Assembly: GCA_023228285.1 (NCBI GenBank)
Contig: JALOBM010000006.1
Span: forward strand, 1 to 62,769
Direction: 5' to 3'
DNA: 62,769 nucleotides
From: Candidatus Cloacimonadota bacterium
GTDB taxonomy: Bacteria; Cloacimonadota; Cloacimonadia; Cloacimonadales; Cloacimonadaceae
The notes beneath the pieces are model-generated. The model did no database searches. It was not told the origin of the DNA and saw only the letters and a program-made list of their open reading frames with translations. The translations under genes and the position numbers were made by a program. Below are positions 34,675 through 50,664 of this stretch, in pieces (the stretch's first letter is position 1; every line of letters starts with the position of its first letter).

Positions 34675-34844
34675 TTGAGCCTGGCAGAAGAGTCTCTCAG
34701 GAGAATCGCATAAGGTTTTTTATGCCACATGACTGCAGAGGAAGTGCTCTGATATGGAGTTCCCTTTGATAATTTGTACATAATGCAATTGTAAAGAAAT
34801 ATATAGCTTACCTGATTGGAAGCCTATAAACCCAAATAATGCAC

Positions 34845-35001
34845 GGAGTTCAAGACACCTATGCTATCTATCTTATGTTAATATAAGCTAAGGGGTGGCT
34901 TGGACTTCGGGCAATGCATAGAATCCACCCCAGTTATTGAAGTCCATGTGACCATATAACATATAGATATACAATAAGATACATGAGATCAAATGAACTC
35001 C
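34845..35001 (-). repeat. Repeat R1, copy A
   Basis: 157 bp, bounded by 8-bp terminal inverted repeats GGAGTTCA (34845-34852) and TGAACTCC (34994-35001). Read on the minus strand, it aligns along its whole length with the copies at 49953 and 50373. Inner inverted repeats, GGACTTC..GAAGTCC and GGGGTGG..CCACCCC, suggest a folded element. It has no open frame. Confidence 0.85.
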
Positions 35002-35057
35002 ATCGCATCATCCGAGATAAATGCAGCAATAAATTTATATGGAAAAATGGATAGGAG

Positions 35058-35636
35058 TTACTTATTGAGGTCTTCGATCTGTTCAATCAGCATGACGGCA
35101 GCGTTTTTCAGCTTCTCGAGATCTTCATCGTTTTCAATAACCATATCCACCATAGTTGCCTTCTGATAATCCGGCATTTGCTGTTCCAACCGCTTGATTT
35201 GATTCTCCCAACTATCGGGATTTCTTTGCTTTATGCGCTCGATGACCAGTTCCAAGGGACTTCTGACGAGTACGATGAAGTCAAATCGATCTTCCAGACT
35301 GGCTTCAAAGAGGAGCGGGATTTCAAAGAATCGGGCTTTTGCGGAAGGTTCCGAGAGTAATCTGTCCACTTCAGCTACTACCAAGGGGTGTAGAATGCTA
35401 TTCAGATACGCCAGTTCTTGTGGTTGATTGAATACAATCTCGGCGATGCGTAAACGGTCGGGATTCTGACCCGAAAACACAGCATCTCCCCAGCGCTTTC
35501 TGAGAAAAGGAGACAATTCTGGCAACATCCGGTTAGCGATGAGATCTGCGTAATATACCTTGTATCCCAAAGCTTCCAAACAGGCACAAAAGCTGCTCTT
35601 GCCACTGCCGATATTGCCCGTGATACCGATGTTCAT
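35058..35636 (-). CDS. coaE: Dephospho-CoA kinase
   Basis: About 192 residues from 35636 (an upstream ATG at 35654 would overlap cdaA). CoaE adds the 3'-phosphate to dephospho-CoA in the final step of coenzyme A synthesis. The P-loop GITGNIGSGKS, the YYADLIANRML acidic motif, and FFEIPLLFEA are typical. It sits at the 3' end of the exbB-exbD-tonB-folP-cdaA-coaE operon. The earlier CoaBC step is at 5224. Confidence 0.93.
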   Translation of the reverse strand: MNIGITGNIGSGKSSFCACLEALGYKVYYADLIANRMLPELSPFLRKRWGDAVFSGQNPDRLRIAEIVFNQPQELAYLNSILHPLVVAEVDRLLSEPSAKARFFEIPLLFEASLEDRFDFIVLVRSPLELVIERIKQRNPDSWENQIKRLEQQMPDYQKATMVDMVIENDEDLEKLKNAAVMLIEQIEDLNK

Positions 35637-35640
35637 TATT

Positions 35641-36387
35641 CTATTTTCCGGCATCGCTGATGATCTGCATCAATTCTTCAAAGGCAATGTTCTGAGTGAT
35701 TTGTCCGCCACGAGCAACTGAGACCTGCCCAGTTTGTTCCGATACAATGACGGCTATGGCGTCGGAAATCTCCGTGATCCCGATTCCCGCCAGATGGCGT
35801 GTGCCAAACTTACGGGAGTACTCGGAGTTTTTGGAGAGTGGTAATACTACTTTAGCTGCCATAATCCGGTTTCCCCTGATGATGATGGCTCCGTCGTGAA
35901 GAACAGTTTTGGTATTGAAAATGGTAAGTATCAGCCGCATGGAGATCAGTGAGTCGATCTGTTCACCAGCCTGGATATATTCATTCAGTTTGCGTTTGTT
36001 TTCCAGGACTATGAGAGCGCCAGTCTTTCGAAAGCTCATAGATGAAACCGCATCGATCAAAGGCGTATAGAGTGAGGACTTTTCTCCTCGAGTAAAGACG
36101 GACTTCAGTTCCTTGGCAAGATTTAGATTGGAAATGATGGTGCGTAGTTCAGGTTGAAAGAGGATTACTATAGCCATAATCCAATAGGTACGTATGCCGC
36201 TTAGCAAACCTGAAAGCACCTTCAATTCGAATAAGCTTGCTATAAAGTAGAGTACCAACAGGAAGAGCAAACCCCACAGTACCTGATAGCCACCGGACTT
36301 GCGTATGATGAGTAGCGATTGGTAGATTAAAAAGGCTATAATGAATATATCTACAATATCTTTGAAGCGTGGAATGAGAAATTCCAT
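35641..36387 (-). CDS. cdaA: Diadenylate cyclase (CdaA/YbbP type)
   Basis: 248 residues. Three hydrophobic segments at the N terminus (about 10-75) anchor it in the inner membrane. The DAC domain follows with DGA at 165-167 and GTRHLAGIG at 195-203. The usual second motif is RHR; here it is RHL at 197-199, a difference worth noting. It should make cyclic di-AMP from two ATP, which controls potassium and turgor. It shares one base with the folP stop. No cdaR/glmM is next to it. Confidence 0.92.
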   Translation of the reverse strand: MEFLIPRFKDIVDIFIIAFLIYQSLLIIRKSGGYQVLWGLLFLLVLYFIASLFELKVLSGLLSGIRTYWIMAIVILFQPELRTIISNLNLAKELKSVFTRGEKSSLYTPLIDAVSSMSFRKTGALIVLENKRKLNEYIQAGEQIDSLISMRLILTIFNTKTVLHDGAIIIRGNRIMAAKVVLPLSKNSEYSRKFGTRHLAGIGITEISDAIAVIVSEQTGQVSVARGGQITQNIAFEELMQIISDAGK

Positions 36388-37223
36388 TATGTTTCTCCCA
36401 TAACTGCAACTGCGGCAAGCACTTTGAGGAATTGTGCATGTTCATATACGTCGTGGACTCGGATGATCTGCGCTTTGCTGAGGCAAGCAAGCATTGTGGT
36501 TGTGAGTGTTCCACCGATGCGTCGATGAACTTCGGATCGAGTTATCTCATCGATAAAGCGTTTTCGCGAAGTGCCCAAGAGTAAGGGTATATTCAGATCA
36601 TTGAAGCTGTCCAGAGATGATAACAGCTTCAGATTATGCTCCAAATTCTTTCCAAATCCGATGCCCGGATCCAGGATCAGACGCTGGGGATAGATTCCCA
36701 TCATTATAGCATATTCACTGCGTTCTTTCAGAAAGTCGTGAACCTCTTTCACTACATCTTGATACTCAGGTTTATCTTGCATGTTTTCTGGCCTGCCCTG
36801 CATATGCATGAGAACCAAACGCGTATCTTTGGCTTCTGCTAATACCTGCACCATATCAGGATCATTACGTAAAGCGGAGACATCGTTGATGATGTCCGCA
36901 CCCAATGCTATGGCTTTGCGTGCCACAGAAGCTTTTTGCGTATCGATGGATATCTGTATATGGGGAAAGCTTTGCTTCAACTTGGTCAATACAGGTTCAA
37001 TCCTCCCCCATTCGAGTTCGGCAGAGACTTCCTTTGAACCTGGTCGTGTGGATTCAGCACCAATATCCAAAATTGTCGCTCCGGCAAAGATCAACTCTTG
37101 CGCGTAGCTTATTGCGGAGTCTGTGCTAAGGTATCTTCCACCATCTGAAAATGAATCTTCGGTAAGGTTGAGTATTCCCATGATACTGGGGATGCTAATA
37201 GATTTAAAGATATCTTTCAACAT
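36387..37223 (-). CDS. folP: Dihydropteroate synthase
   Basis: About 278 residues from 37223. It joins p-aminobenzoate to dihydropterin pyrophosphate in folate synthesis. MGILNLTEDSFSDGGRYLS, DIGAESTRPGS, INDVSALRNDPDM and ILDPGIGFGK are diagnostic. A GTG-initiated upstream extension would overlap the TonB-like gene, so the ATG after its stop is preferred. folP next to cdaA is a common arrangement in the FCB group. Confidence 0.95.
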   Translation of the reverse strand: MLKDIFKSISIPSIMGILNLTEDSFSDGGRYLSTDSAISYAQELIFAGATILDIGAESTRPGSKEVSAELEWGRIEPVLTKLKQSFPHIQISIDTQKASVARKAIALGADIINDVSALRNDPDMVQVLAEAKDTRLVLMHMQGRPENMQDKPEYQDVVKEVHDFLKERSEYAIMMGIYPQRLILDPGIGFGKNLEHNLKLLSSLDSFNDLNIPLLLGTSRKRFIDEITRSEVHRRIGGTLTTTMLACLSKAQIIRVHDVYEHAQFLKVLAAVAVMGET

Positions 37224-37228
37224 AGCAG

Positions 37229-37876
37229 CTACTTCAAGCGGAAATTGCACCGGATTTGATAGAGCTTACGGGGATTGTATGCACCAGTGAAGCCAAAACG
37301 CCAGCTTCGCATGGCTTCATACAAAGAGTACCAATGTTCCGCCTTGCGATAAGAAATGACTTTGATGCTGTTCATATCCACAGTTCCATCCCGGTTAATG
37401 CTAAATTCCACCACCACACTATCGTCCATCAATGGCGTGATAGAGGGGATTGTTTCCCTGATAAAAAAGACATCTGCCCCACCTTCAATCAGACTTGATG
37501 AATAGGCCAGGGATTCGCCATTACCAACCCGGCCGTCGTCCTTAAGAGCTGAGATGTTATCACGGCTGATTGTACTGGGATCTATGATTACATTTTGCTG
37601 TTCTGTGTTTTCCCAATGCGGATTCTCAATAAGAGGAGTAGTGGGCTCGACCTCCTCAGAAGCTGTTGGATCGGATGGTTTTGTGCTATCCTCGCCGAAT
37701 TCTGCTTGGGGAAATGCTTTGCCTACCACACCAGGTTCCATCTCGGTGATCCACTCAAACTGATGCCATCTTTGCCGAGTATCAATGTTGATATACAGGA
37801 AGCCAAGTAATAGCAATAGAAGCAGATGAATGAATCCGGAGATAAGATATGGACTATAAGCTTTGCTGGATTTCAC
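37229..37876 (-). CDS. TonB-like energy transducer
   Basis: 215 residues with an N-terminal membrane anchor (ISGFIHLLLLLLLGFLYI), a proline/glutamate/threonine-rich spacer (about 50-130), and a C-terminal TonB-type domain with VVVEFSINRDGTVDMNSIKV and YSLYEAMRSWRF. It would transmit energy from ExbB/ExbD to outer-membrane receptors. It is coupled to exbD by a 4-base overlap. Confidence 0.82.
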   Translation of the reverse strand: MKSSKAYSPYLISGFIHLLLLLLLGFLYINIDTRQRWHQFEWITEMEPGVVGKAFPQAEFGEDSTKPSDPTASEEVEPTTPLIENPHWENTEQQNVIIDPSTISRDNISALKDDGRVGNGESLAYSSSLIEGGADVFFIRETIPSITPLMDDSVVVEFSINRDGTVDMNSIKVISYRKAEHWYSLYEAMRSWRFGFTGAYNPRKLYQIRCNFRLK

Positions 37877-38274
37877 TGACCTTCCACCTCTGTGGCTACA
37901 AAGATTTTCTCGAATCCGGAGCTACGTATGGTATCCATCAGATTGATCAACTTTTGCAAAGGTAGATTTTCCTCTGCTGAGAGCCTTACAACCTGATCTG
38001 GGCTTTGATAGTCCTTTCTGAGGCGTTCATCTAACTGCTCGAAGGAGATGGCTTCATTGTTATAATAGACCCTGTCATCGGAAAAATAGGTTATGGATAT
38101 GTTTTGCAGACTGTGCCGGCTCGCTGTTTTGGAGCCTGGCAGCTTTACCGGTAATCCGTTTTGGCTACTAAAATTTGAGGCAATCAAGAGAAAGATAATC
38201 AGGAGGAAGACAACGTCGGTCATCGATATCAGAACGGTGGAGCTAATCTTTTTCTTGGAGAGCTCTAATTTCAC
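37873..38274 (-). CDS. exbD: ExbD/TolR-family biopolymer transport protein
   Basis: 133 residues. One N-terminal membrane helix with the conserved acidic residue (SMTDVVFLLIIFLLIAS; Asp in the membrane) is followed by a periplasmic domain with VVRLSAEENLPLQKLI. It partners with ExbB in the proton-driven motor. It overlaps both neighbours by 4 bases. The exact class, ExbD or TolR, is not certain, but the adjacent TonB-like protein favours ExbD. Confidence 0.88.
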   Translation of the reverse strand: MKLELSKKKISSTVLISMTDVVFLLIIFLLIASNFSSQNGLPVKLPGSKTASRHSLQNISITYFSDDRVYYNNEAISFEQLDERLRKDYQSPDQVVRLSAEENLPLQKLINLMDTIRSSGFEKIFVATEVEGQ

Positions 38275-38885
38275 GATTGCTTCCTCATACGGATAGTGTA
38301 TTCTACTCCACTTTCCTGCATCGTCTTTACGATGTTTTCCAGGTTTTGAACTATGTCATTGTAGAATATGATCGCGACAATGCCAACAATCAAACCGCCA
38401 ATAGTGGTCAAAAGTGCTTCCCAGATACCACCGGCAAGTAAACTGATATCCACTCCCCCGCTGCTGTGAATCTGGATGCTCATGAAGACGCGAACCATGC
38501 CGATAACCGTACCCAGAAAACCTATAAGAGGGGCTATCGCTGCAAAGGTGCTAAGCCATCCCATACCTTTTTCCAGTTTATGCAGCTCACTCTGAGCAGC
38601 GGTCTCCATGCTCTGGGTTATCAATTCACTATCATCAGTTTTGGCATTGATAAGCTTATCCAGCATTACTGCCATGGGGCTATCGGAATCAACTTCGGAG
38701 AGGGCCTTCCTGAGCGAAGAGGGATCATTATATGGTTCCAGGTGCTTCAATAGCTTTTTATTGCTCTTCAGCACTCTGAAGATCTGGCGATACTTCTCGA
38801 TTACGATGGCGATCACTGCAATTGACAAGAGAAGTAGCACATACATCAAGATGCCACCGCGAAGCATAAGAGAAAGAACAGTCAT
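38271..38885 (-). CDS. exbB: ExbB/TolQ/MotA-family proton channel protein
   Basis: 204 residues. Three hydrophobic segments are at about 8-28, 110-130 and 155-178. The region GWLSTFAAIAPLIGFLGTVIGM (landmarks GWLSTFAAIAPL and GTVIGM) and the GGIWEALLTTIGGLIVGI stretch are classic. With ExbD it forms the energy-harvesting motor that drives TonB. It is the first gene of the six-gene operon. Confidence 0.92.
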   Translation of the reverse strand: MTVLSLMLRGGILMYVLLLLSIAVIAIVIEKYRQIFRVLKSNKKLLKHLEPYNDPSSLRKALSEVDSDSPMAVMLDKLINAKTDDSELITQSMETAAQSELHKLEKGMGWLSTFAAIAPLIGFLGTVIGMVRVFMSIQIHSSGGVDISLLAGGIWEALLTTIGGLIVGIVAIIFYNDIVQNLENIVKTMQESGVEYTIRMRKQS

Positions 38886-38914
38886 AATACCTCATAGTTC
38901 ATTCTAATAAAGAT

Positions 38915-38984
38915 GCCCTTCTTCGTGCTACTCAATTGTGCAGGTTTTTAGTCCCACAAAATAAGCATCAGCTAAAAGAAGGGC
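38915..38984 (-). other. Long-loop inverted repeat between serC and exbB
   Basis: A perfect 9-bp stem GCCCTTCTT (38915-38923) with AAGAAGGGC (38976-38984), with about 52 bases between. It lies after the serC stop on the minus strand and upstream of exbB. It could be a terminator for serC, or a leader structure for exbB. The loop contains TTGAG and TTTATT promoter-like parts for exbB. Confidence 0.4.
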
Positions 38985-39010
38985 TCCCGCTATTGTTTTC
39001 TATATCTTTT

Positions 39011-40096
39011 TTATCCGTGGTTCTTCATGAAGTCTTTCATGAACTCTGCCAGAACGTAAGTTGCGTTCAGAGGGAGTGAATTGTAGGTGCTGGCACGGCA
39101 GCCGCCTACGTCGCGATGTCCTTTCAGACCGATCATTCCGGCTTTCTTGGCTTCGCTTACAAAGAGAGCTTCAAGTTCCTCGGTACCCAGATTGAAGGTA
39201 ATATTCATCAATGAACGGTCTTCTTTCACTGCAGCCCCTTTGTAGAAGCCGTTGGAAGCATCGATCACATCATAGATGTATTTAGCTTTAGCTTGATTGT
39301 TCTGGGCAACCTTGGTGAGTCCGCCCATATCTTCAATCCATTTCAGCACCAGACCAATCATGTAGATAGTGAAGCAGGGAGGAGTATTGTACATGGAACC
39401 TTTGCTGGCGTGGACATTGTAGTCCAACATGGAGGGCAGGTCTTTCTGGGCAGTGACAAGGTAGTCTTTTTTAATGATCACAACCACGCATCCGGCGGGA
39501 CCAACGTTCTTCTGAGCACCGGCATAGATCATGGAATACTTTTTCACATCGATGGGTTTGCTCATGAAGTTCGAGCTCATATCGGCAATCAAAGGAACAC
39601 CGGAGACAACATCCGGATCATGATGCCATTCGGTACCATAGATGGTGTTGTTTGTAGTGATATGCAAGTAAGCTGGATTTTCCGATAGTTCATAGCTTTT
39701 GGGAATATAGCTAAATTTCTTGTCTTCCGAACTGGCTGCCACATGATGAGCTTTGCCTATCTTTTTTGCTTCAGAGATGGCCTTCTTGCTCCATACACCG
39801 GTATTGATGTAGTTTCCTACCTTACCTTCCGGAATGAAGTTCATCGGCACCATCAAGAACTGCATGCTGGCGCCGCCTTGCAGGAAAAGGACATCATAAT
39901 CATCACCAAGACCGTAAATGCGTTTTACGGCTGCGTGAGTTTCGTCGATAATAGCTTGGAATTCTTTGCTGCGATGGCTCATCTCCATCACGGAAAGGCC
40001 CATGCCTTTATAATTGAATAGGTCTGCCTGAGCTTCACGAAGAACTTCTTCGGGGAGCACTGCGGGTCCCGCGTTGAAATTGTGTACGCGTTCCAT
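39011..40096 (-). CDS. serC: Phosphoserine aminotransferase
   Basis: 361 residues from 40096, where AGGAGG precedes the ATG. It converts phosphohydroxypyruvate and glutamate to phosphoserine, the second step of serine synthesis, also used in pyridoxal phosphate synthesis. VHNFNAGPAVLPEEVL, VMEMSHRSKEF, FLQGGASMQF and YAGAQKNVGPAGC (PLP Lys) are diagnostic, as is GGCRASTYNSLPL near the C terminus. It appears monocistronic. Confidence 0.96.
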   Translation of the reverse strand: MERVHNFNAGPAVLPEEVLREAQADLFNYKGMGLSVMEMSHRSKEFQAIIDETHAAVKRIYGLGDDYDVLFLQGGASMQFLMVPMNFIPEGKVGNYINTGVWSKKAISEAKKIGKAHHVAASSEDKKFSYIPKSYELSENPAYLHITTNNTIYGTEWHHDPDVVSGVPLIADMSSNFMSKPIDVKKYSMIYAGAQKNVGPAGCVVVIIKKDYLVTAQKDLPSMLDYNVHASKGSMYNTPPCFTIYMIGLVLKWIEDMGGLTKVAQNNQAKAKYIYDVIDASNGFYKGAAVKEDRSLMNITFNLGTEELEALFVSEAKKAGMIGLKGHRDVGGCRASTYNSLPLNATYVLAEFMKDFMKNHG

Positions 40097-40237
40097 TTGG
40101 ATCCTCCTGGATGTATTTTTTGTACTTTGGTGCAAGGATTTCAGATGCTATTCTTTCAGGCAAGCTATTTTTTTACTCATGAGAATTTTGTTGACGTATA
40201 ATGGGTCTTGCCAAGTGTGACTCAAAGGAATAATCCA

Positions 40238-40831
40238 ATGATAGATAAGATATTAAAGAATTATAAGGTTATCCTGGCATCTGCCTCTCCTCGACGCAAA
40301 GAAATTTTTGCGCTCTTGGGAATTGAGTGCAAAATACGCATAAGCGACATCGATGAGCCAATCTCGGGAGAAGATCCCGCCCTACAAGCGATGATGCATG
40401 CAAAGAATAAGTGTAGCGCTATTCTAGCCAGTGCCGGTAGTCAGGACTTGGTGGTTGCCGCTGATACTATCGTAGTATTGGAAAACCATATCTTGGGTAA
40501 ACCTGTTGATGCTTTGGAAGCGCGCAGTTACTTAAAATCTCTAAGCGGAAAAGGCCATATGGTGATAACAGGCATCTGCATTGGTAGCCTAGAGTATCAA
40601 AGGTTCGCTTATGAAAGCACTAAAGTATTCTTTGCGCCTTTGAATGACAACGAAATTGAAGACTATATACTTACCCAAGAACCCATGGACAAAGCCGGAG
40701 CTTATGGTATTCAGGGTTTTGGCAGTCAATTTATTACTCGTATCGAAGGCTGTTACTTCAACGTGATGGGCTTCCCAGTACGCAGGTTTTACGAAACCAT
40801 CAGCAATATGAAACTGGAAGGCAAACTGTGA
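40238..40831 (+). CDS. maf: Maf-family nucleoside triphosphate pyrophosphatase
   Basis: 197 residues from 40238. ILASASPRRKEIFALLG near the start is the Maf hallmark, followed by AADTIVV and GAYGIQGFGSQFI. Family members hydrolyse modified or canonical nucleotides such as dTTP, UTP or m7GTP, and are linked to septum arrest. It starts the coupled set maf - amidohydrolase - unknown - gltX. The AAAGGA ribosome site is modest. Confidence 0.92.
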   Translation: MIDKILKNYKVILASASPRRKEIFALLGIECKIRISDIDEPISGEDPALQAMMHAKNKCSAILASAGSQDLVVAADTIVVLENHILGKPVDALEARSYLKSLSGKGHMVITGICIGSLEYQRFAYESTKVFFAPLNDNEIEDYILTQEPMDKAGAYGIQGFGSQFITRIEGCYFNVMGFPVRRFYETISNMKLEGKL

Positions 40832-42318
40832 ACTACTTTTATAATGGTCATTTTTGGATAGGCAATGCATTCGATGAGGATGTGCGGGGAATCCTTTGTG
40901 AAAAAGGGAAGATTAAGGATATCGTGTATCAAGATTGTGATCTTGATAACAACCTCTTTGGCATAGATTTACATGGCGCTTATGTATTTCCGGGATTCAT
41001 AGATACTCATACTCATAGCTTTGAAGGCGGCTTGTATTCCCTGATGATAGACCTTTCTTCAGCTCGAAATCTGGAGGATGTATTTACGATGATCGCCGAG
41101 GGCAGCGTTGACAAGGGTAATTGTGTATTCGCCTGGAACTTCGATGAGAGGAAAATCACTGAAGGCCGCTTCCCAACCAAAGCAGAACTGGATAAAGTAG
41201 TGCCGGACAAGAACCTGGTTTTAAGAAGAATCGACGGACATTGCTGCATAATAAATACCTTTGCCTTCAACAATATTACCCGCACAATCCGGAAAGCCTT
41301 TTGTGAAGACGATATACTGAAAGGTGTAGAGAACGACAAAGCAGTGCATTGGTTTCACAGCAATTTGGATAATGAGCTCATCCTAAGGTCATATCAATCA
41401 GCTTCTCAGATTGCTTTGAAGGGAGGCTTTGGAACCGTTCACACTATGGTAGGTGATGCCGATATGTCCATGGGGCATTACGATCTCTTAGAAAAGCATC
41501 TGTTTGAGCTTGCCGTGGATTATGTCCTGTACCCCCAATCTTTCAATATTGAAGCCGCATTGGATCTGGGCGCAACCAGAATCGGGGGATGTATCCTTGC
41601 CGACGGCTCAATTGGCAGCCTCACTGCAGCATTCTTCCAGCCTTATCAAGGACGGCCAGTTTTTGGTACTCTGTACCAAAGCGATCAGTTTTGGTACGAC
41701 TTCATCAGTAAAGCTCATAATCACAATCTTCAAGTGGGAGTTCATTGCATCGGAGATCGCGCTATCAGCCAGATAAATAACGTGTATCTCAAACTGGCGC
41801 AAGAGGATTACAGGGATCTGCGGCATCAATTGATCCACTGTGAAGTAACGGACAACGATTTACTGAGCCAAATCCAGGATTCTACAGCGATTCCAGTAAT
41901 GCAGCCTGCGTTTGATATGCTTTGGGGTGGAGACAAGGGATTCTATGCACAAATGTTGGGTCCGGAACGTTCCCGAAGCATGAATCGGTTTAAGAGTATG
42001 ATGAACCTCGGCATCTCAATCACCGGCTCTTCGGATTGGTATATCACGGAGTTGGACATCCGAAAGTCTCTTTATGCCGCCATGAATCACCACAATCCCC
42101 ATGAGCGGCTGAGCCTTGCCGAAGCAGTGCAAATCTACTCCAGCAATGCAGCTCGCTTGTCTCATGATGAACATCGTTGGGGAGAGATAAAAAAAGGCAT
42201 GGATGCGGATTTTACCATGTTAAATTATATACCTTCAGCGAAAGAACCAGATTTGGCACAAAAAGTAGTAATGGTGGTCAAAAAAGAACAAGTTCTATAT
42301 GAAAATATGTCAGATTGA
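40828..42318 (+). CDS. Amidohydrolase family 3 (second YtcJ-like)
   Basis: 496 residues with a GTG start that overlaps the maf stop (GTGA). Metal motifs are DTHTHSFEGG (about 60), HCIGDRA (about 310) and GSSDWYI (about 400). It is similar in plan to the protein at 24370, but shorter at the N terminus. Both have GTG starts in an overlap with the upstream gene. The substrate is unknown. It overlaps the next gene by 20 bases. Confidence 0.8.
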   Translation: MNYFYNGHFWIGNAFDEDVRGILCEKGKIKDIVYQDCDLDNNLFGIDLHGAYVFPGFIDTHTHSFEGGLYSLMIDLSSARNLEDVFTMIAEGSVDKGNCVFAWNFDERKITEGRFPTKAELDKVVPDKNLVLRRIDGHCCIINTFAFNNITRTIRKAFCEDDILKGVENDKAVHWFHSNLDNELILRSYQSASQIALKGGFGTVHTMVGDADMSMGHYDLLEKHLFELAVDYVLYPQSFNIEAALDLGATRIGGCILADGSIGSLTAAFFQPYQGRPVFGTLYQSDQFWYDFISKAHNHNLQVGVHCIGDRAISQINNVYLKLAQEDYRDLRHQLIHCEVTDNDLLSQIQDSTAIPVMQPAFDMLWGGDKGFYAQMLGPERSRSMNRFKSMMNLGISITGSSDWYITELDIRKSLYAAMNHHNPHERLSLAEAVQIYSSNAARLSHDEHRWGEIKKGMDADFTMLNYIPSAKEPDLAQKVVMVVKKEQVLYENMSD

Positions 42319-42862
42319 TCAGTCAGAAATCGAAAGCATGGTATCTGAAGAGCTTCGTCTGCATCCGTTTCTGGAACCTGTTGATCTGTATAAACTGCTT
42401 TATCAGGCCCTATACGGCCCTTTTCATATAGTGCGGGATTTCAAACAACTCTGTCTGGGGATAAGCGCAGAAATCTGGCGGATCACAGAACCATATCTTC
42501 CTCACTATCAGGATATTGGCCCTGGTTATACCAGGATCAGCCTGAGTTCTATCAAGCATGATGGTAGCGTTGATAGACTCAATGAAAGAATTGAAAGCTT
42601 GAGTAATTGGATTCTTGCTTCTTGTATGCTATGCGAAGATGTGAGACAAGACTTCCGTGAACGCTGGCGGAACAACAGACACCTTTTGAGTAATGCGCTG
42701 CCTGCAAGTCCTGAAGCCTGGCAATTGGCCGATTCCTTGGCAGAGAGAGGTGAACTGCCCTCTCATTCCAAGCTGTTCCATCAACATTACGAACCCCATT
42801 ACCGTTTAGTTGATATGAGTTTGAAGCAATATCGAGAAGATTTTTTGGAGCTAAATACATGA
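42299..42862 (+). CDS. Uncharacterised cytoplasmic protein
   Basis: 187 residues, with no signal peptide or membrane segment. It is helical and rich in Leu, Glu, Tyr and His, with HYEPHYRLV near the end. I recognise no family. It overlaps the amidohydrolase by 20 bases and gltX by 4 (ATGA). Such tight coupling suggests a conserved functional link with gltX. Confidence 0.7.
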   Translation: MKICQIDQSEIESMVSEELRLHPFLEPVDLYKLLYQALYGPFHIVRDFKQLCLGISAEIWRITEPYLPHYQDIGPGYTRISLSSIKHDGSVDRLNERIESLSNWILASCMLCEDVRQDFRERWRNNRHLLSNALPASPEAWQLADSLAERGELPSHSKLFHQHYEPHYRLVDMSLKQYREDFLELNT

Positions 42863-44283
42863 AAACCATTCGAGTTCGTTTTGCCCCCAGCCCAACTGGC
42901 TATCTGCATATTGGCGGATTGAGAACCGCACTGTACGACTACCTTTTTGCCCGCAAGACTGGAGGTAAATGCATCCTCCGCATTGAAGATACGGACCAAA
43001 GCCGCGAAGTAAGCGGAGCAGCAGAAATGCTAATCAACACACTCCATGAACTGGGCATCGATTTTGATGAAAGCCCGGTACAAGGCGGCGAGTTCGGCCC
43101 CTACATACAATCAGAAAGATTGGAACTGTATCGCAAACATGCTGATGAACTGGTAAGAAGCAATCATGCTTACCATTGCTTTTGTAGTCCTGATACATTG
43201 CAGAAGATGAGGGAGGATCAGCAGGCTCGAGGAGAATTTGTGAAGTATGACCGCAGATGCCTGGAGCTCAGTAAGGAAGAAGTACAGGCCAAACTCTCAG
43301 CCGGAGAATCCAGCGTGATACGCTTAAAAATGCCTGACAACCGTAGATTTGGTTTTGATGACGTAATTCGTGGTCATGTGGAAATGGATGCCTCGCAAAG
43401 CGATGATCAAGTGTTGATCAAATCAGACGGATTTCCAACCTATCATTTGGCAGCAACAGTGGACGATCACTATATGCAAATCTCGCATGTCATTCGTGGT
43501 GAAGAGTGGCTATCCTCCACTCCAAAGCATATCTGGCTGTATGAATGTCTAGGATGGGATGCACCTCAATGGGTACATCTGCCCCTGATCCTGAACACGG
43601 ATAGAAGCAAATTGAGCAAGCGTATGAACGATGTATCCGTTGATAGCTATCTACAGAAAGGCTACTTGAAAGAAGCATTATTAAACTTTGTAGCTCTCTT
43701 GGGGTGGCATTCTGTTGACGATCGTGAGCTATACACATTGGATGAACTATGTGAAGCTTTTGACTTGGAGAGAGTGAATAAAGCAGGAGCCATCTTTGAC
43801 CTATCCAAGCTGGATTGGATGAATGGCCAATATCTGCGCAGTCTGCCTTTGGAGACAGTTGCCGAACGCGCTCTACCATGGTTCGACGCATTGGATATCA
43901 AAGATATCGATACATACCATAGAATTATCTCAGCTGCGCGGGAAAGATGTACTTTGCTGCCTGAGTTGGCAGAGTATTCCAAGATGTTCCTCTCCCCCAC
44001 ACCCATATGTGAGAAAGACCTTGAGTTTATCCGCTGTGAAAGCTCGCAAAAAGTACTGAGATGGTATGTGGAAGCATTGGTTGCCACTACGGAATCCGAA
44101 GAAGCAATTTCAGAGCTAGCGAATCGCGGGATAGCAGAACTGGGTATCAAAGGAAAGAACTTTTATCTGCCTCTCAGACTGGCATTGATTGGTCAGCAAC
44201 ACGGACCGGACATGTTCACAACAGTATCGATCCTGGGAAAGGATGAAGCTGTTAAAAGACTCAGTGCTTTCCTGCTCGATTGA
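42859..44283 (+). CDS. gltX: Glutamyl-tRNA synthetase
   Basis: 474 residues, a normal length. It charges tRNA-Glu with glutamate. The HIGH-type signature is FAPSPTGYLHIGGLRTALYD (HIGG) and the KMSKS-type is DRSKLSKRMNDVS (KLSKR). IEDTDQSRE and YHLAATVDDHYM are also typical. It cannot be said from sequence whether it also charges tRNA-Gln. It is the last gene of the coupled set. Confidence 0.97.
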   Translation: MKTIRVRFAPSPTGYLHIGGLRTALYDYLFARKTGGKCILRIEDTDQSREVSGAAEMLINTLHELGIDFDESPVQGGEFGPYIQSERLELYRKHADELVRSNHAYHCFCSPDTLQKMREDQQARGEFVKYDRRCLELSKEEVQAKLSAGESSVIRLKMPDNRRFGFDDVIRGHVEMDASQSDDQVLIKSDGFPTYHLAATVDDHYMQISHVIRGEEWLSSTPKHIWLYECLGWDAPQWVHLPLILNTDRSKLSKRMNDVSVDSYLQKGYLKEALLNFVALLGWHSVDDRELYTLDELCEAFDLERVNKAGAIFDLSKLDWMNGQYLRSLPLETVAERALPWFDALDIKDIDTYHRIISAARERCTLLPELAEYSKMFLSPTPICEKDLEFIRCESSQKVLRWYVEALVATTESEEAISELANRGIAELGIKGKNFYLPLRLALIGQQHGPDMFTTVSILGKDEAVKRLSAFLLD

Positions 44284-44337
44284 TCGCCCGTAGTTCCATC
44301 TATTAGAATATCAGTACATTCACTGAACGAACAGCTT

Positions 44338-47300
44338 CTAATGCTTTAGTGGCAAGGTTACAAATACAGTAGTTCCTTCATTCTCCTTGCTTCTGATCCA
44401 GATCTTGCCTTTATGCAGTTCAGCTATACGTTTTGAGGTAGATAGTCCCAATCCCAGCCCGCTGGAACGATACTCCACAGTACCAGATTTGTGAGCATAG
44501 ATTTCATTGAGTTCATAGAACTTGCGGAAAACATTCTTCAATTGATACTCTGGAATGCCGATACCGTTGTCTTGAACATAGATCACCATGCTATCCTTAC
44601 CTTCCAGTTTTTCCTGTTGAAATGCTGCTTTACGCGCTCCAATCACCACTGTGCCAAAATCATTGGTAAATCGAATCGCGTTCAAAACCAGATTATAGAT
44701 CATCAGATGCAGTGCTTCCCAGTTCACCATTATCGGAGGAAGGTCTTTTTCTATCTCCAAGCGGATGAACATCTTCCGTTTCCGTGATAGTATTTCCACT
44801 TCTTGCTGAATCAGTTCCAGGATTTCCGAGATATCAACAGCAGCCATACTAAGACTCTTTTTCAGATTGTAATTGTTCATGGTGTTGATATCTCCGGTGG
44901 TCATGATCAGTTTTTTTACGGAATTCTCGATCTTGTTCAAGATGTCCTTACGTTCATCTTCATCCACGTATAAATTGCGTTTCAGGCGCGACACATAGCT
45001 CTGTAAAGTAGTCAATGGAGTATTGAGTTCGTGCGAGACTATCGCCATAAACTCATCCTTAAGCATCTCAAAGGAGTTTAACTCCGTGCTTTTTTGCAGA
45101 ATGCTTTCGTATAGCATCGCGTTTTTAATGGCAATGGAAATCTGTTCTATAAATAGTGTAATGATCTCTTGTTTAAGATACATACCCCTGCTATTGTCAT
45201 CCATATTATCAAGATATAGGAAGCCAAAGATACTTTCATCAACCGTTATGGGCACACAGAATATGGTGTGAAGCTGAAAATCCTGAACGCTTATCGCAGC
45301 TTTGAATCGGTTGTCCTCCAAAGCATTATAAGTACTGACCATCTCCAGAGTGCTTTGTGAGAGCGAAAGTACAGACTTGCTGACTCCAGCGACGTTGCCC
45401 AGAATCTGTTTTTGCCTGTCAATCTGCACTTTATAGATGTTGTTACCGTCGCTATCCTTTTTGATCAGAAAACCTCTACCGGCATTTGTAAAATCTATGG
45501 CACTGGAGACAATCTCATGTTCCAGATCGCTGATTTCCACAATGCGCATCATTTCATGAGAGATCTTCATCAAATCGTTCATCTTTTGGATGCGCAGAGT
45601 TATTTCCGAGAAATCTTGAATGCGCACTATCAGAGCAGAGAGGTGCTGTTTGATGTTGCGCATAATAGATATTTCCTGCTTGGTAAAAGGCAATTCCCCA
45701 TCATCATTCAATGCAAGATAACCCACTCGTTTCATGCCTGTTTGCAGAGGTATTATCGCCATGTTCTTACCATCAATCACGCTCAACACAAGATTCTCAT
45801 TACGCATAGCTTTATCGATGTCCTGCCCCAATTGCGGATCAACCACGCTGGATTGAGAACTATTGTATTGATGGAAAGTAGTGTAATTCTGAATTCTGTC
45901 ACTATATTCCATCAATCTGAACTGCCAAGGGCTCAAAACTTCATGGATACCTTTTCCAATAAGGAATTTGATGCGATCCACATTGTAAACGTTTGCTATG
46001 TTGAAGAGGAGCTCGTTCCACTTGTGTCTAAGGTCCTTGGCTCGAGACTTCACAGGAATCAGATTGAACTTGCGGAGTTGATTAAGTTTATATAGGTTTA
46101 CTTCCAGGTAGTTGCTTCTATCATCTTCAGGTGTATTCTCAGTAATTTGTTCCAAATAGCCTTGGTATTCTGCGTAACTATGTTCTGCATGATCGTCTTG
46201 TTTCAGTTCCAGTAAAACCTGGATACGTATCTGATACAGCTCAACAAAGAGCTGATAGTATTCATATTCCTGCCATTCAAGGAAATACTTTTTAACCTTC
46301 CGCAAAATCTCTCGTAAGGGAATCTTCTCATTCATCAAGTCCACTCGCAGTTGCAGAATGTCCAATTTGCATAACCAATAGCGATAGTGGTTCTCTTCTG
46401 ATATTAAGTGCGCTTTATCGATCAATTCCTGGGCTTTTTCATAGTCACCCAAACCATAATGACAGGCAGTTTCCAAGATATAAAACACATTTATGGCGTA
46501 AGTATTATTGATCTCGCCAGCATGGCGGATTGCTAGCTTCAATTCCGCCAGAGCTTTCTCATAGTCATGTTCGGACATAGCAATCAAGCTTAGTACATTG
46601 TGATGAAACTCCTCTTCATGCAGATGCTTGAAATCGATTTGAACGTTGCTGCTTAGAAGTTTGCGAAGTTTCTTGGTACTCATCATTTCGCTTAGATAAT
46701 AGAAATATGTCTTCACTAAAGGATTTATCTCACGCAATTTTCCTCGGGTAAGTTCCGGTTGACTTTCAAGAATAAACTCGTAGTAATGACCAAAACCCTT
46801 TATTTTACTTTTTGCCAGTGCCAAGTTTCGCTGGATAGAATCAATATAGGTCACACTACTGATGGATCGGATCAAATCGCGGCAAGAAATCAATAGGGTT
46901 TCAGCTTCTCTAAACTCACCCATTTTGATCTTGGCCTCACCTTGATTCAATAGTGCCAAGGCTTTTATGGTGGTGAGATTCAGCTCATTTGCGTATTTGT
47001 ATGCCAGCTGGGAGTAACTGCTTGATTGCACTGTGATGCCTTGTTTGAGATAGAGATCCGAAAGGTTATTGTAGATAAGTCCCCAGAAACGCCTGATGTT
47101 GTATCGTTTCCAGATGCTGAGAGCCATATTCAGGTGTTCAGTGGCTTCGTCGATGTTCTTCAGATCGCTGTGGAATACCCCCAGATCATTGTGCATGGAA
47201 GCCAGGCGAACCATTACCCGGGAATCGTGCTCCGGAGGTATAGTCTCCAAAAAGTCTTCAAGAGTCTTAATTGCACGGTCATAGTCTTTCTTTTGTCCGT

Positions 47301-49791
47301 AATACACTGCCAGGCGATCAGTAAAGACTATATGCAAATCAAGAGGTAATTTAGATGCCAGCGCAAGATCCAGATACTGCTTAGCTTTTTCCGGCTCAGA
47401 ACGCAGATATACTTGAATGTAACCTATCCAAACCAGAAGTTGTTGCTTACCTGTAATAATAAGGCTTTCTGCTTTTTGGAAGCTCTCTAGTGCGGCTTTA
47501 AGATCTTCACGCATAAAGAGTATAGTGCCGATACTGTGATATTTCTCAAACAACTCGGGTATCTGGTCTGCGTTGTCCAGTAAAAATCCAGCGCGCTCAA
47601 AAAAGCCAGTTAGTTCAGTCTTTTCTTGAAAGATTGCCAGATCATTTATCACATCTTTGGTTTCTACTTCAGTGCGAGGATCGAAATCCAGTTTGAGAAC
47701 ACTTAACATGGCATCGTAAGCCTGAGACTGTTCATAGTCTTCGCTCAAGAGATTTGAGAGCTTCAAATAATACGTGCGGGCAGATTGCAGATCCTGTGCA
47801 ATGAATGCATTTTCGATCAATCCCAAGCAGGTGTCTTTGTCAATGATCTCTTTTCGGGCATAAAACTTCAAAATCCGTTTTGATACCAGCACATGAACCT
47901 TGTGGTCAGATTCCGAGAACATACGGTCTTTTGCTTCTATGAAGCTAAAACTGTAGTACTTGCCTTTCTTGCTGAGTATCTCGTTGTAGGTGGCATCATT
48001 CAGCAGGTTGTAGAGTTCGGTATCCTTCAACTTGAGTATGTAAATAATCAATTCCCGGCTCAAGGGGGTCTGTACGATGCTTAGCTTTTGCAGTAAGGCA
48101 TAATTTTGAGAAGTAAGATGGCTCATTCTGGAATAGATCGAGTGCAGGAGGCGTGAGGGCAGTTGATAATATTTAAGGCTCTCCGGAAAGATGACTTCAT
48201 CTTCCAATACTATGCTTTTCCTCTGCACCAGATCGATAAGAATTTCACGGATGAAGTGGGGATTACCAGAGCTTCTCCGATATAGCTCTTCACATATATT
48301 ATCTGGTGCAGGCACAGGTAGCAGCTTGTCTATGTAGGATTTACTTTCATCAATGTTCAAGAAAGGAAGATTAATCATCACCGTATGATTGATCTGGCTG
48401 ACTTTATTAAAGTCGTTGCAGGATAGCACAATCATCATCTTTTTCTGTATCAGGATCGGAGACATGAAGTTGATGAAATCTATGGTGTGCCGATTCACAT
48501 AATGGAAGTTGCGAATGATGAATATGATGGGCTTATGCTCTGATAGATGAACTAGGAGACTCTTTACGCTTTCAAAATCCAATTTGAGCTCTTCTGCGCT
48601 CTGACTGAGTGCTTTAGCTTCTTGCTCTTCACCAAACAGGTATTGTTTAAATTTTTTCGATATCTGTGCCAGAAATTCATGACCTTCTACCTCTTCATCA
48701 CTGAGAGACTGCACATATTCCTTGATCAGTGCGAAAAAGGCTTCATGTTCAGTGCGAGTGCAGGAGTAATCGAAAAGGAAAAATTCACCGCCCAACAAAT
48801 GATAGCGGAATAGGGATAATATACTGTCTTTCCCGAGACCGTCTCCCCCTATCACGGAGATAATCTTACCATTTGCTTCACAAACGGAAGGGACAAAATC
48901 AAGGATCTGATGAGAATACTTACCCCGCACAATATAACTATTGAAACGTAAAGTGTTTACAATGGACCAAGATGCAGAAAACGGGTATTCATCGTGATGA
49001 ATTCGGTTTATATAACCAATGATCTCCTGACCGCTTTGAAACCTGTTCTCTGGATTACGTTCCAAAAGCCGTAGAATAAAGCGCTCCAGTTCTGGTGGTA
49101 TGCTCTTATTAAGCGAGGAAGGAAAATTGGGAATAAAGTACTGATGCCCACCCGTTATCAGAGCATTCAATTGATCCACACTAAAAGGAAATGAACCAGT
49201 ACAAAGGCGATACAACAACACACCCAGGCTGTAGAAATCACTGCGCTCGGTAGCTTGTTGCCCCATTAGCAATTCTGGAGCAATGTAGGGTAATGTTCCA
49301 GATACATGCTGACTGTCTCGCGAAGGATCTACCTTAGAAAAACCATAATCTATTAGATTGATCACGATATGAGGGCCTTCCATGCGATACAATACATTCT
49401 CCAGTTTGAGGTCTTTGTGCAGAATATTCTGATTGTGCAGGGCATGTAAAGCGTATGAGATCTGGACTACAATGTCATAGATAAAACTGATCCTGGCTTT
49501 GGAGAATCGATAGTTGACTAGGGTCTTGCCTTCAAAATAATCCGATATGAAGTAGATGTGGTCACCCACGTGTCCAAAATCCACAACATGAGATAAATTG
49601 GGATGCTCTATCTTTGTGATGTGATGCATATCTTCCGCACTAAAATAGCGGTAAAGCTCTTCTGATGATAGATATTGAAACAGCTTCAGACTATATAGTT
49701 TGTTTGTGCGGATATCCCGAACTTTATATACATTCGCCCAGCTTCCCGATCCGAGACTCTCCAAAACTTCATAACGATGATCTATGTACAT
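44338..49791 (-). CDS. Giant Ser/Thr kinase - ATPase - TPR - GAF - histidine kinase hybrid
   Basis: 1817 residues from 49791 (GGGAG six bases upstream). Order: Ser/Thr kinase 1-265 (G-loop GSGSWANVY, Lys36, HKD 125-127, DYG 148-150, APE 171-173); AAA-type ATPase from about 300 (Walker A GGDGLGKDS at 315-323); helical repeats of TPR kind about 700-1250; GAF about 1395-1560; histidine kinase with His1587 (SHELNTPL), N box NLVLNA about 1700, DNGIGIP 1741 and GLGLGLS 1778. The ATPase looks weak: Walker A has Asp before Ser, and the Walker B region reads FIIRNFHYVN. No cognate response regulator is next to it. It should be a cytoplasmic sensor joining two phosphorylation systems. The gene is alone. 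Confidence 0.9.
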   Translation of the reverse strand: MYIDHRYEVLESLGSGSWANVYKVRDIRTNKLYSLKLFQYLSSEELYRYFSAEDMHHITKIEHPNLSHVVDFGHVGDHIYFISDYFEGKTLVNYRFSKARISFIYDIVVQISYALHALHNQNILHKDLKLENVLYRMEGPHIVINLIDYGFSKVDPSRDSQHVSGTLPYIAPELLMGQQATERSDFYSLGVLLYRLCTGSFPFSVDQLNALITGGHQYFIPNFPSSLNKSIPPELERFILRLLERNPENRFQSGQEIIGYINRIHHDEYPFSASWSIVNTLRFNSYIVRGKYSHQILDFVPSVCEANGKIISVIGGDGLGKDSILSLFRYHLLGGEFFLFDYSCTRTEHEAFFALIKEYVQSLSDEEVEGHEFLAQISKKFKQYLFGEEQEAKALSQSAEELKLDFESVKSLLVHLSEHKPIIFIIRNFHYVNRHTIDFINFMSPILIQKKMMIVLSCNDFNKVSQINHTVMINLPFLNIDESKSYIDKLLPVPAPDNICEELYRRSSGNPHFIREILIDLVQRKSIVLEDEVIFPESLKYYQLPSRLLHSIYSRMSHLTSQNYALLQKLSIVQTPLSRELIIYILKLKDTELYNLLNDATYNEILSKKGKYYSFSFIEAKDRMFSESDHKVHVLVSKRILKFYARKEIIDKDTCLGLIENAFIAQDLQSARTYYLKLSNLLSEDYEQSQAYDAMLSVLKLDFDPRTEVETKDVINDLAIFQEKTELTGFFERAGFLLDNADQIPELFEKYHSIGTILFMREDLKAALESFQKAESLIITGKQQLLVWIGYIQVYLRSEPEKAKQYLDLALASKLPLDLHIVFTDRLAVYYGQKKDYDRAIKTLEDFLETIPPEHDSRVMVRLASMHNDLGVFHSDLKNIDEATEHLNMALSIWKRYNIRRFWGLIYNNLSDLYLKQGITVQSSSYSQLAYKYANELNLTTIKALALLNQGEAKIKMGEFREAETLLISCRDLIRSISSVTYIDSIQRNLALAKSKIKGFGHYYEFILESQPELTRGKLREINPLVKTYFYYLSEMMSTKKLRKLLSSNVQIDFKHLHEEEFHHNVLSLIAMSEHDYEKALAELKLAIRHAGEINNTYAINVFYILETACHYGLGDYEKAQELIDKAHLISEENHYRYWLCKLDILQLRVDLMNEKIPLREILRKVKKYFLEWQEYEYYQLFVELYQIRIQVLLELKQDDHAEHSYAEYQGYLEQITENTPEDDRSNYLEVNLYKLNQLRKFNLIPVKSRAKDLRHKWNELLFNIANVYNVDRIKFLIGKGIHEVLSPWQFRLMEYSDRIQNYTTFHQYNSSQSSVVDPQLGQDIDKAMRNENLVLSVIDGKNMAIIPLQTGMKRVGYLALNDDGELPFTKQEISIMRNIKQHLSALIVRIQDFSEITLRIQKMNDLMKISHEMMRIVEISDLEHEIVSSAIDFTNAGRGFLIKKDSDGNNIYKVQIDRQKQILGNVAGVSKSVLSLSQSTLEMVSTYNALEDNRFKAAISVQDFQLHTIFCVPITVDESIFGFLYLDNMDDNSRGMYLKQEIITLFIEQISIAIKNAMLYESILQKSTELNSFEMLKDEFMAIVSHELNTPLTTLQSYVSRLKRNLYVDEDERKDILNKIENSVKKLIMTTGDINTMNNYNLKKSLSMAAVDISEILELIQQEVEILSRKRKMFIRLEIEKDLPPIMVNWEALHLMIYNLVLNAIRFTNDFGTVVIGARKAAFQQEKLEGKDSMVIYVQDNGIGIPEYQLKNVFRKFYELNEIYAHKSGTVEYRSSGLGLGLSTSKRIAELHKGKIWIRSKENEGTTVFVTLPLKH

Positions 49792-49952
49792 CAACTGCTC
49801 CCATAGCATGATAAGCCTATTTTTCCACATAAATCATACTGTCAATCAGAATCTTTCCTAGTGACTCTTCAAGGTACGAATGTCGTTCTGCTGCTAGGCT
49901 GCCATACCCAAATTTGGCTGATACTTTTAACAAACGATTAAACTTAGAAAAT

Positions 49953-50108
49953 GGAGTTCATTTGACCTTACGTTTCTTATTGTATACCTATACGTTATGC
50001 GGTCAAATGGACTTCAGTTACAGGGGTATATTCTATGAATTGCCTGAAGTCTAAACCACCCTTTAACTTATTTTAACAGGGATATATAGCATAGGTATCT
50101 TGAACTCC
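49953..50108 (+). repeat. Repeat R1, copy B1
   Basis: 156 bp, ends GGAGTTCA (49953-49960) and TGAACTCC (50101-50108). Inside are two perfect stems: CATTTGACC (49959-49967) with GGTCAAATG (50001-50009), and GACTTCAG (50010-50017) with CTGAAGTC (50044-50051). It matches copies at 34845 (opposite strand) and 50373. Confidence 0.88.
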
Positions 50109-50170
50109 AGCACATTGATACATCTACCAAACGGTTCAAAAGCTTCATTCCTCCTCTGGTTTATCGATAC

Positions 50171-50244
50171 TTGAACCTGATATTATCGGGTGATCATCGA
50201 GGGAACACAGGATGATAACGGCTTGATATCAGCTTCAACACTGC
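50171..50244 (+). repeat. Repeat R2, copy B
   Basis: About 74 bp with GATATTATCGGGTGATCATC and later TGATAAC, TTGATATC and AACACT, in the order of copy A at 34601. It lies between two R1 copies. Confidence 0.7.
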
Positions 50245-50372
50245 ATAGAACAAAGGGAAAGAGGAGAATGATTCAAAAGCTCCCTTGGGTCGCTGTGGCA
50301 ATTCGTGGAATACCACACCAAGCCTGACATGACACTGGATAGTTTTCGAGTTTTAACTCGGATAATGCGATT

Positions 50373-50525
50373 GGATTTCATTTGACCTTATATCTTATAG
50401 TATATCTATAGTTATAAGGTCTAATGTACTTCAATATCTGTGGTGAATTCTCTGCATTACACGAAGTCCAAGCCACCCCTTAGTTTATTTTAACAGAGAT
50501 AGATAGCATAGGTGTCTTGAACTCC
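50373..50525 (+). repeat. Repeat R1, copy B2
   Basis: 153 bp, left end GGATTTCA (one change from the R1 terminus) and right end TGAACTCC (50518-50525). It contains a strong stem GACCTTAT..ATAAGGTC whose bases differ from copy B1. It shares the block CTTCAAT..GAAGTCCAAGCCACCCCTTAG with copy A. Confidence 0.85.
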
Positions 50526-50664
50526 GTGCATTTAAGCTCCCCAATTACTCGCTATAGTTGCACAACAATGCTTATAATCTTCTACCGTTTACGGTTCTAG
50601 AGTGTTTGTAGTGTTCCAAGTTTGGAAAAAGGGGTTACATAACGATAGTTCTATGATGCTCAGA

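Follow-up and report, generated by a model that had tools for sequence, protein, structure and literature searches.

Three copies of a repeat with inverted repeats at its ends and inside it, here called R1, lie within a 62,769-nucleotide stretch of DNA (the window) from the uncultured Candidatus Cloacimonadota bacterium. What kind of element is R1? The original prediction, made from the letters of the window, offered three readings: a non-autonomous mobile element resembling a miniature inverted-repeat transposon (MITE), a unit of the REP/BIME type, or a structured RNA.

The three copies (A, B1, and B2; Table 1) align from end to end as claimed, with a mean column identity of 86% including short flanks, and inspection of the sequence places the inner inverted repeats at the positions given for them. 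A covariance model of the family finds all three copies, on both strands in every case and with best E values of 1.4e-29, 3.8e-27, and 4.5e-25, and finds no fourth copy in the window, the next match having an E of only 0.36. The sequences GGAGTTCA and TGAACTCC (GGATTTCA in B2), originally taken as the ends, are present where they were reported but are not the true termini of the element. Among host-genome copies the alignment extends outward to CYCGGATAATGC... and ...GCATTATTYGGG, its left limit being C[CT]CGGATAATGC and its right limit GCATTATT[CT]GGG. Since similarity among copies of the same genome runs outward on both sides, copy A is assigned to 34831-35016; at 186 bp, it exceeds the span first given by 15 and 14 bp and is flanked on each side by TTTAT. 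The outer ends of B1 and B2 are damaged, being either lost or degenerate, and the right end of B1 is replaced by CAGCACATTGATAC..., a flank common to three other host-genome copies. The TTTAA to the left of B2 occurs again at 50531-50535, past the shortened right end of this copy; this may be chance. Genes neighbouring R1 include coaE, cdaA, and those for a kinase-TPR-GAF-histidine kinase, a thioredoxin, and a lipid A acyltransferase.

Table 1. Positions of R1 copies and their parts in the window
Feature	Coordinates	Strand	Basis
Copy A, complete R1 element, 186 bp, outer inverted repeats CTCGGATGATGCG.../...GTGCATTATTTGGG	34831..35016	-	sequence, copy alignment, flank test
Target-site duplication TTTAT, left of copy A in element orientation	35017..35021	.	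sequence, flank test
Target-site duplication TTTAT, right of copy A	34826..34830	.	sequence, flank test
Copy A hairpin unit H1; P2 arms CATTTGATC/GGTCACATG between two TGGASTTCA motif copies	34937..35002	-	sequence, covariance model
Copy A hairpin unit H2, inverted; P4 arms CAAGCCACC/GGTGTCTTG	34845..34908	-	sequence, covariance model
Copy B1; conserved core 49953-50108; left end degenerate	49943..50119	+	sequence, copy alignment, covariance model
Copy B2; core 50373-50525; left end present; right outer repeat lost after GTGCA	50357..50530	+	sequence, alignment, covariance model
Candidate target duplication TTTAA left of B2	50352..50356	.	read from sequence

R1 had been expected to occur many times in the genome, and this is borne out: a BLAST search at E<=0.001 gives 36 matches, several of which are fragments, in the host draft genome (G000; 2.06 Mb in 90 contigs), and R1 is therefore repeated far beyond chance. 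The 32 elements in which both ends are present are 177-188 bp long. Copies in the host genome are dispersed, mostly intergenic, and non-coding (20 of 22 near-full copies overlap no ORF of at least 110 aa). A BLAST search with copy A matches five of 59 genomes, the host included, all within the host genus; the covariance model, whose per-genome match counts in the genus include both strands, reaches far subfamilies and finds matches in 9 of the 12 genus genomes. With a wider model (E<=1e-5, stricter filters, at most 22 candidates scored per genome), related elements are found in 21 of 124 phylum genomes, all of one family and representing 7 of 50 genera. Those of one genome from another genus (G060; for example, L082, L085, and L086) have R1-type ends and perfect duplications. 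A pattern for one internal hairpin (P3, see below) gave 18 stretches in the named genome collection, 14 of which are from Cloacimonadota; in the remaining four, the surrounding element is missing by eye. Plasmid and phage records contained no match to R1, and a pattern search of viral contigs gave two stretches (L292 and L293), the arms of L292 being poorly paired (3 of 10).

Terminal inverted repeats are present in R1, since the outer CYCGGATAATGC/GCATTATTYGGG are seen across copies and pair in the consensus. For an analysis of the flanks, elements were taken from several species in which both outer ends are recognisable (at most 7 mismatches), together with 20-nt flanks; after truncated copies were dropped and near-identical elements merged, 32 distinct elements remained. 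The left 5 bp are identical to the right 5 bp in 11 of these (shuffled mean 1.8, maximum 8 in 10,000), and the flanks agree at four or more of the five positions in 23 (shuffled 8.3, maximum 16 in 10,000 shuffles). The target consensus is WTNAW (TTTAT, TTTAA, TTAAT, TTGAA, ATAAA). Positions 1, 3, and 5 are informative; positions 2 and 4, at which T and A are nearly fixed, carry no evidence (p 0.07 and 0.25). Given these identical flanks at WTNAW targets, R1 is therefore very probably a non-autonomous MITE, and the first of the original readings is supported by the outer inverted repeats, the 5-bp target duplication, and the number of places in the host genome. Sites next to two neighbouring genes were also compared within the genus, using the R2 model at E<=0.01 on up to 1.5 kb of each side, some stretches being cut by contig ends. 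Beside coaE, which is found in 12 of 12 genus genomes, only the host has a match (0 of the 11 others, whose coaE proteins are only 41-53% identical); beside the lipid A acyltransferase gene, found in 11 genus genomes, again only the host has one (0 of the 10 others). The stretches without a match are candidate empty sites and in this respect agree with the MITE reading.

Within its outer repeats, R1 has an ordered interior. The outer repeat is followed by the motif TTGGAGTTCAA, an arm, a loop, a second arm, the motif TTGGACTTCAA, and a spacer, and then by the mirror image of this arrangement. Each half-element is one hairpin unit of ~66 bp, in which two copies of TTGGASTTCAA in direct order surround a 9-bp inverted repeat; the whole R1 contains four copies of this motif in the order + + - -. 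Solitary hairpin units exist besides the inverted pairs. The loop of the unit is 31-34 nt long in 141 of 149 units, a set that was filtered by pairing and used solely for loop lengths and the G.T/A.C ratio. Because its halves stand in inverted order, the whole R1 can fold as a four-way junction: the helices P1 (GGAGTT/AACTCC), P2, P3 (GACTTC/GAAGTC), and P4 abut without linkers, giving a "cloverleaf". The same DNA can alternatively fold as two long hairpins, the form that RNAalifold favours on an alignment of 27 copies. The sequence of the junction is nearly constant; the two side arms vary between subfamilies but remain complementary. A pseudoknot in the consensus of the host copies (GGGGTGG/CCACCCC) was rejected, with 25 cells broken versus 17 changed but paired; by eye, it is not kept in the copy from genome G004.

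The extent to which the arms covary depends on which copies are compared. In the MAFFT alignment of 27 copies, 90.6% of the cloverleaf cells are paired versus 25-49% when the pairing is slid, 48 cells are doubly changed versus 19.2 in shuffles, and 10 pairs have any double change versus 7.0 (23 of 500 shuffles give at least 10). Across subfamilies, in a family alignment (A4) that is fitted to the model and contains both strands of many elements, double changes occur in 8 of 9 pairs of P2 and 8 of 9 pairs of P4, and the covariation score is 0.371 versus 0.110 when shuffled; in this alignment the count of pairs that show a double change at all (19) is not above that of shuffles (17.6), 108 of 500 of which reach 19. 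Examples from far subfamilies are the P2 arms CATGAGGCC/GGCCTCATG, CAAAGCGCT/AGCGCTTTG, and CAAGCCGGC/GCCGGCTTG and the P4 arms CAAACCGCC/GGCGGTTTG, CAAAGTGCC/GGCACTTTG, and CAAAGAGCC/GGCTCTTTG. When units were chosen by motif only, with no filter for pairing, 28 dissimilar arm sets, including some chance motif pairs, had on average 3.89 of 7 pairs versus 2.26 when shuffled (maximum 3.11 in 10,000). Within the host genome, RNAalifold yields 0 consensus pairs for 23 copies; in the five longest helices, 0.23-0.46 of the changed pairs are kept, inside the range of the other listed helices (0.08-0.65). Thus, the stem covariation that had been suggested as a check is found between subfamilies, in three tests, but not among the copies of the host genome, which show decay without a pairing constraint.

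A mechanism that would accommodate both the insertion and the pairing can be proposed. R1 would be moved in trans by a putative transposase that cuts WTNAW targets with a 5-bp stagger. The hairpins may be needed as DNA, either single-stranded or as a cruciform, for the ends to be recognised or brought into synapsis, and TTGGASTTCAA may be the sequence that is bound. Across lineages, complementarity of the arms is preserved as their bases change, and old copies decay. A role in transposition for the hairpins as folded DNA has, in our judgement, slightly less than an even chance. The complete version is more tentative and, taken as a whole, doubtful: selection would act on the DNA fold rather than on sequence, with the putative transposase reading hairpin or four-way-junction DNA that has a fixed junction and free complementary arms, and inserting it with a 5-bp duplication. 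If true, R1 would be a mobile element that unites structure-guided single-strand recognition with staggered double-strand insertion.

Mutation bias is the strongest rival to this functional reading of the arms. In this case, template switching during replication or repair would copy one arm onto the other (quasi-palindrome correction), and the fold would have no function. Such a process fits the perfect complementarity seen in 24 of 113 distinct arm pairs, all of them different in sequence. However, the host-genome copies decay uncorrected, and mutation bias alone does not explain a loop length that is nearly fixed; this origin of the complementarity is considered unlikely.

Covarying arms would also be expected if R1 were a structured RNA present in many copies (an ncRNA with a four-way junction or an mRNA-tail element) and spread by transposition. 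Copy A with its flanks folds better than shuffled sequences (z -3.9), although for copy B1 the value is only z -1.6, and the host copies, as seen above, give no consensus pairs and keep changed pairs no more often in the longest helices than in others. RNA selection on one strand should clearly favour G.T over A.C mismatches. In R1 orientation the stems of 55 elements contain 47 G.T and 45 A.C cells, so that G.T is not above A.C (14 further elements have 14 and 7), and this near equality speaks for DNA over a whole-element RNA. In the orientation of the hairpin unit, the base of whose stem has two usual G.T wobbles, G.T does exceed A.C (47 versus 23, p 0.006, the units being related). This excess is compatible with an RNA; since the units of R1 lie on opposite strands, it suits single-stranded unit hairpins better than a transcript of the whole element, and single-strand folding of the unit, as DNA or RNA, may therefore matter. 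Relative to the upstream ORF, 10 of 22 host copies are on the same strand and 8 on the opposite strand, with 4 assigned to neither; mismatch types and gene orientation thus do not point to one transcribed strand, and the model accepts the reverse strand almost equally well. In the R1 copies of the window no Rfam gathering score is reached, and in the whole window, as in 10 loci with family members, only tRNAs reach theirs. At E up to 1, these 10 loci yield three tRNAs plus miRNA and sRNA matches below gathering; a mir-305 match inside one element (L260, E 0.082, below gathering) was taken as chance. What stands of the structured-RNA reading is the covariation between subfamilies; the host-genome copies, the lack of strand asymmetry in the whole element, gene orientation, and Rfam all speak against it, and we regard it as improbable.

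R1 might instead be a cassette for site-specific recombination, joining at sequences like TTTAT in the way suggested for Bacillus cereus repeats, rather than a cut-and-paste MITE. Consistent with this, the left flank is TTTAT more often than any other 5-mer (5 of 32 elements). However, copies have different flanking 5-mers (TTGAA, TTAAT, ATAAG, ATAAA), and at the positions that vary the left flank of a copy agrees with its right flank, the outcome expected of a staggered cut; we give such a cassette little credence.

If R1 is a MITE, an enzyme should act on its ends. Among the two transposase families searched, DDE_Tnp_1 (PF01609) and Y1_Tnp (PF01797), no autonomous partner sharing the R1 ends was found. 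At 17 PF01609 loci of the genus there are 7 weak end-like matches (5-6 mismatches), compared with 5 in a reversed control, and this family was rejected as the mobiliser. None of 11 loci, most with broken elements, has a matching far end: at L113 the match is just its own left end reversed, and those at L032 and L070 are the left end read backwards. Contig-end sequences beginning TTACTAATCTTTCC were dismissed as a parent of R1 because by eye they resemble the ends of another IS (6 of 19 matches to this type of end motif lie inside R1 copies), as were the AAGACCGTTGCA ends (C53, L112), which are similar to the termini AAAGACCTTTGCA found on a PF01609 IS in genome G005 (L147). The RAYT genes of the Y1_Tnp family were surveyed at 12 genus loci, with ~1.5 kb on each side where the contig allows. 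Ten have no motif and one has a single motif; at the twelfth, a RAYT-like gene in genome G007, paired R1-like elements lie ~800 bp away, and other palindromic repeats border the gene on both sides. Since the RAYT-type genes found at these 12 loci do not carry R1 repeats, RAYT was also rejected as the mobiliser. The REP/BIME reading thus holds for layout, which is BIME-like in that two hairpin units stand in inverted order in the interior and single units also occur, but not for the RAYT genes. Also improbable is that R1 is a REPIN or BIME moved by a RAYT (Y1/HUH) transposase: the paired and solitary units and the G007 gene are in its favour, but the remaining loci, the other repeats beside that gene, and the 5-bp target duplication of R1 argue against it, as HUH single-strand transposition is not known to make a target duplication.

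The MITE reading places R1 among several known classes of small repeats. MITE interiors are usually regarded as degenerate remnants of a parent IS, and the covarying interior is the surprising part of R1: a DNA architecture capable of forming a cloverleaf is kept in seven genera of one family while the arm sequences turn over. R1 thereby makes folded DNA, as part of a transposition substrate, a directly testable question, and it points to a Cloacimonadota transposase still to be found. The titles and abstract openings retrieved in searches on Cloacimonadota repeats or transposases, on cloverleafs or cruciforms in bacterial MITEs, and on four-way-junction repeats describe no such element.

The following comparisons refer to excerpts of the papers cited. 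The bcr1 and related repeats of B. cereus (PMC6542083) are, like R1, short, dispersed, limited to one bacterial group, and present in tens of copies per genome, and a TTTAT motif is tied to their mobility, as in R1. However, R1 belongs to another phylum, TTTAT is just one of its several WTNAW duplications, and the excerpted account of bcr1 speaks of neither paired inverted hairpin units nor arm covariation. The CerM-associated intergenic repeats (CIR) of Caulobacter (PMC2229807) resemble R1 in having two long inverted repeats that form two arms with a linker; the table of that review, as excerpted, lists no TIR for CIR and an unknown TSD, whereas R1 has outer inverted repeats, a target duplication, covarying arms, and an alternative cloverleaf pairing. 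REP, BIME, and REPIN sequences (PMC3733652; see also PMC3116915) are also palindromic units, single or paired, and extragenic, and REPs too are described as IS targets. The units of R1 are ~66 bp with loops of 31-34 nt, in contrast to 20-40 bp for REP units. R1 further differs from these repeats in its 5-bp target duplication; no RAYT partner was found for it, and no GTAG/CGTC tag was noticed. Typical prokaryotic MITEs (PMC10969869, as excerpted) share with R1 the TIRs, the direct repeats, the AT-rich intergenic sites, and the capacity to form stem-loops. R1 differs from them in that no parent IS was found and, above all, in an interior whose structure is kept by compensatory change across genera.

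Two of the three R1 copies in the window, B1 and B2, are separated by a stretch that looks like a further dispersed repeat. Sequence resembling it is present at three other loci (L033, L106, and L116), and in another Cloacimonadota genome, G003, an R1 copy (L047) is adjoined by something similar. A foreign right flank, CAGCACATTGATAC..CTACCAAACGGTTCAA..GCTTCATTCCTCC, is common to four R1 copies (L006, L007, L025, and L028), as if R1 and this flank had moved or been duplicated jointly.

The host draft genome, G000, also contains a separate multi-copy element with ACTAATCTTTCC ends. At G000 contig ends, 6 of the 19 matches to its end motif fall inside R1 copies, mostly at TTAAC^TTATTTT or close to it, within the loop of P4, one of the side arms of the R1 cloverleaf. 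Since R1 makes up a minor fraction of the genome, this looks like a preference for inserting into R1.

One R1 copy in G009 retains TTGAA on both flanks despite the loss of most of the hairpin of the other side arm, P2, which may have occurred before or after insertion. In G007, an R1 subfamily carries an additional conserved upstream stretch, CTTGACTGAAAACACATTTTCGC..., with small variants, which may represent either an extended end of the element or promoter-like sequence.

Features described here and their locations
Feature	Location	Remarks
Stretch between B1 and B2	window 50109-50351	GAACCTGATATTATCGGGT...GATAACGGCTTGATATCAGC
Copy B1	L007	one of the four with the shared right flank
ACTAATCTTTCC-ended element within R1	L049, L051, L052, L054, L055, L057	G000 contig ends
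R1 copy, most of P2 missing	L100 (G009:C51)	R1 start L100:1501
G007 copies with CTTGACTGAAAACACATTTTCGC...	L170, L178, L194-L196, L198, L199	
Y1_Tnp (RAYT-like) gene	L226 (G007:C23:16580-18400)	

The Y1_Tnp gene of G007 is bordered on either side by palindromic repeats other than R1 (CACCTTTCGTCTTTTAAGG...); together, gene and palindromes apparently constitute a REP-like system unrelated to R1.
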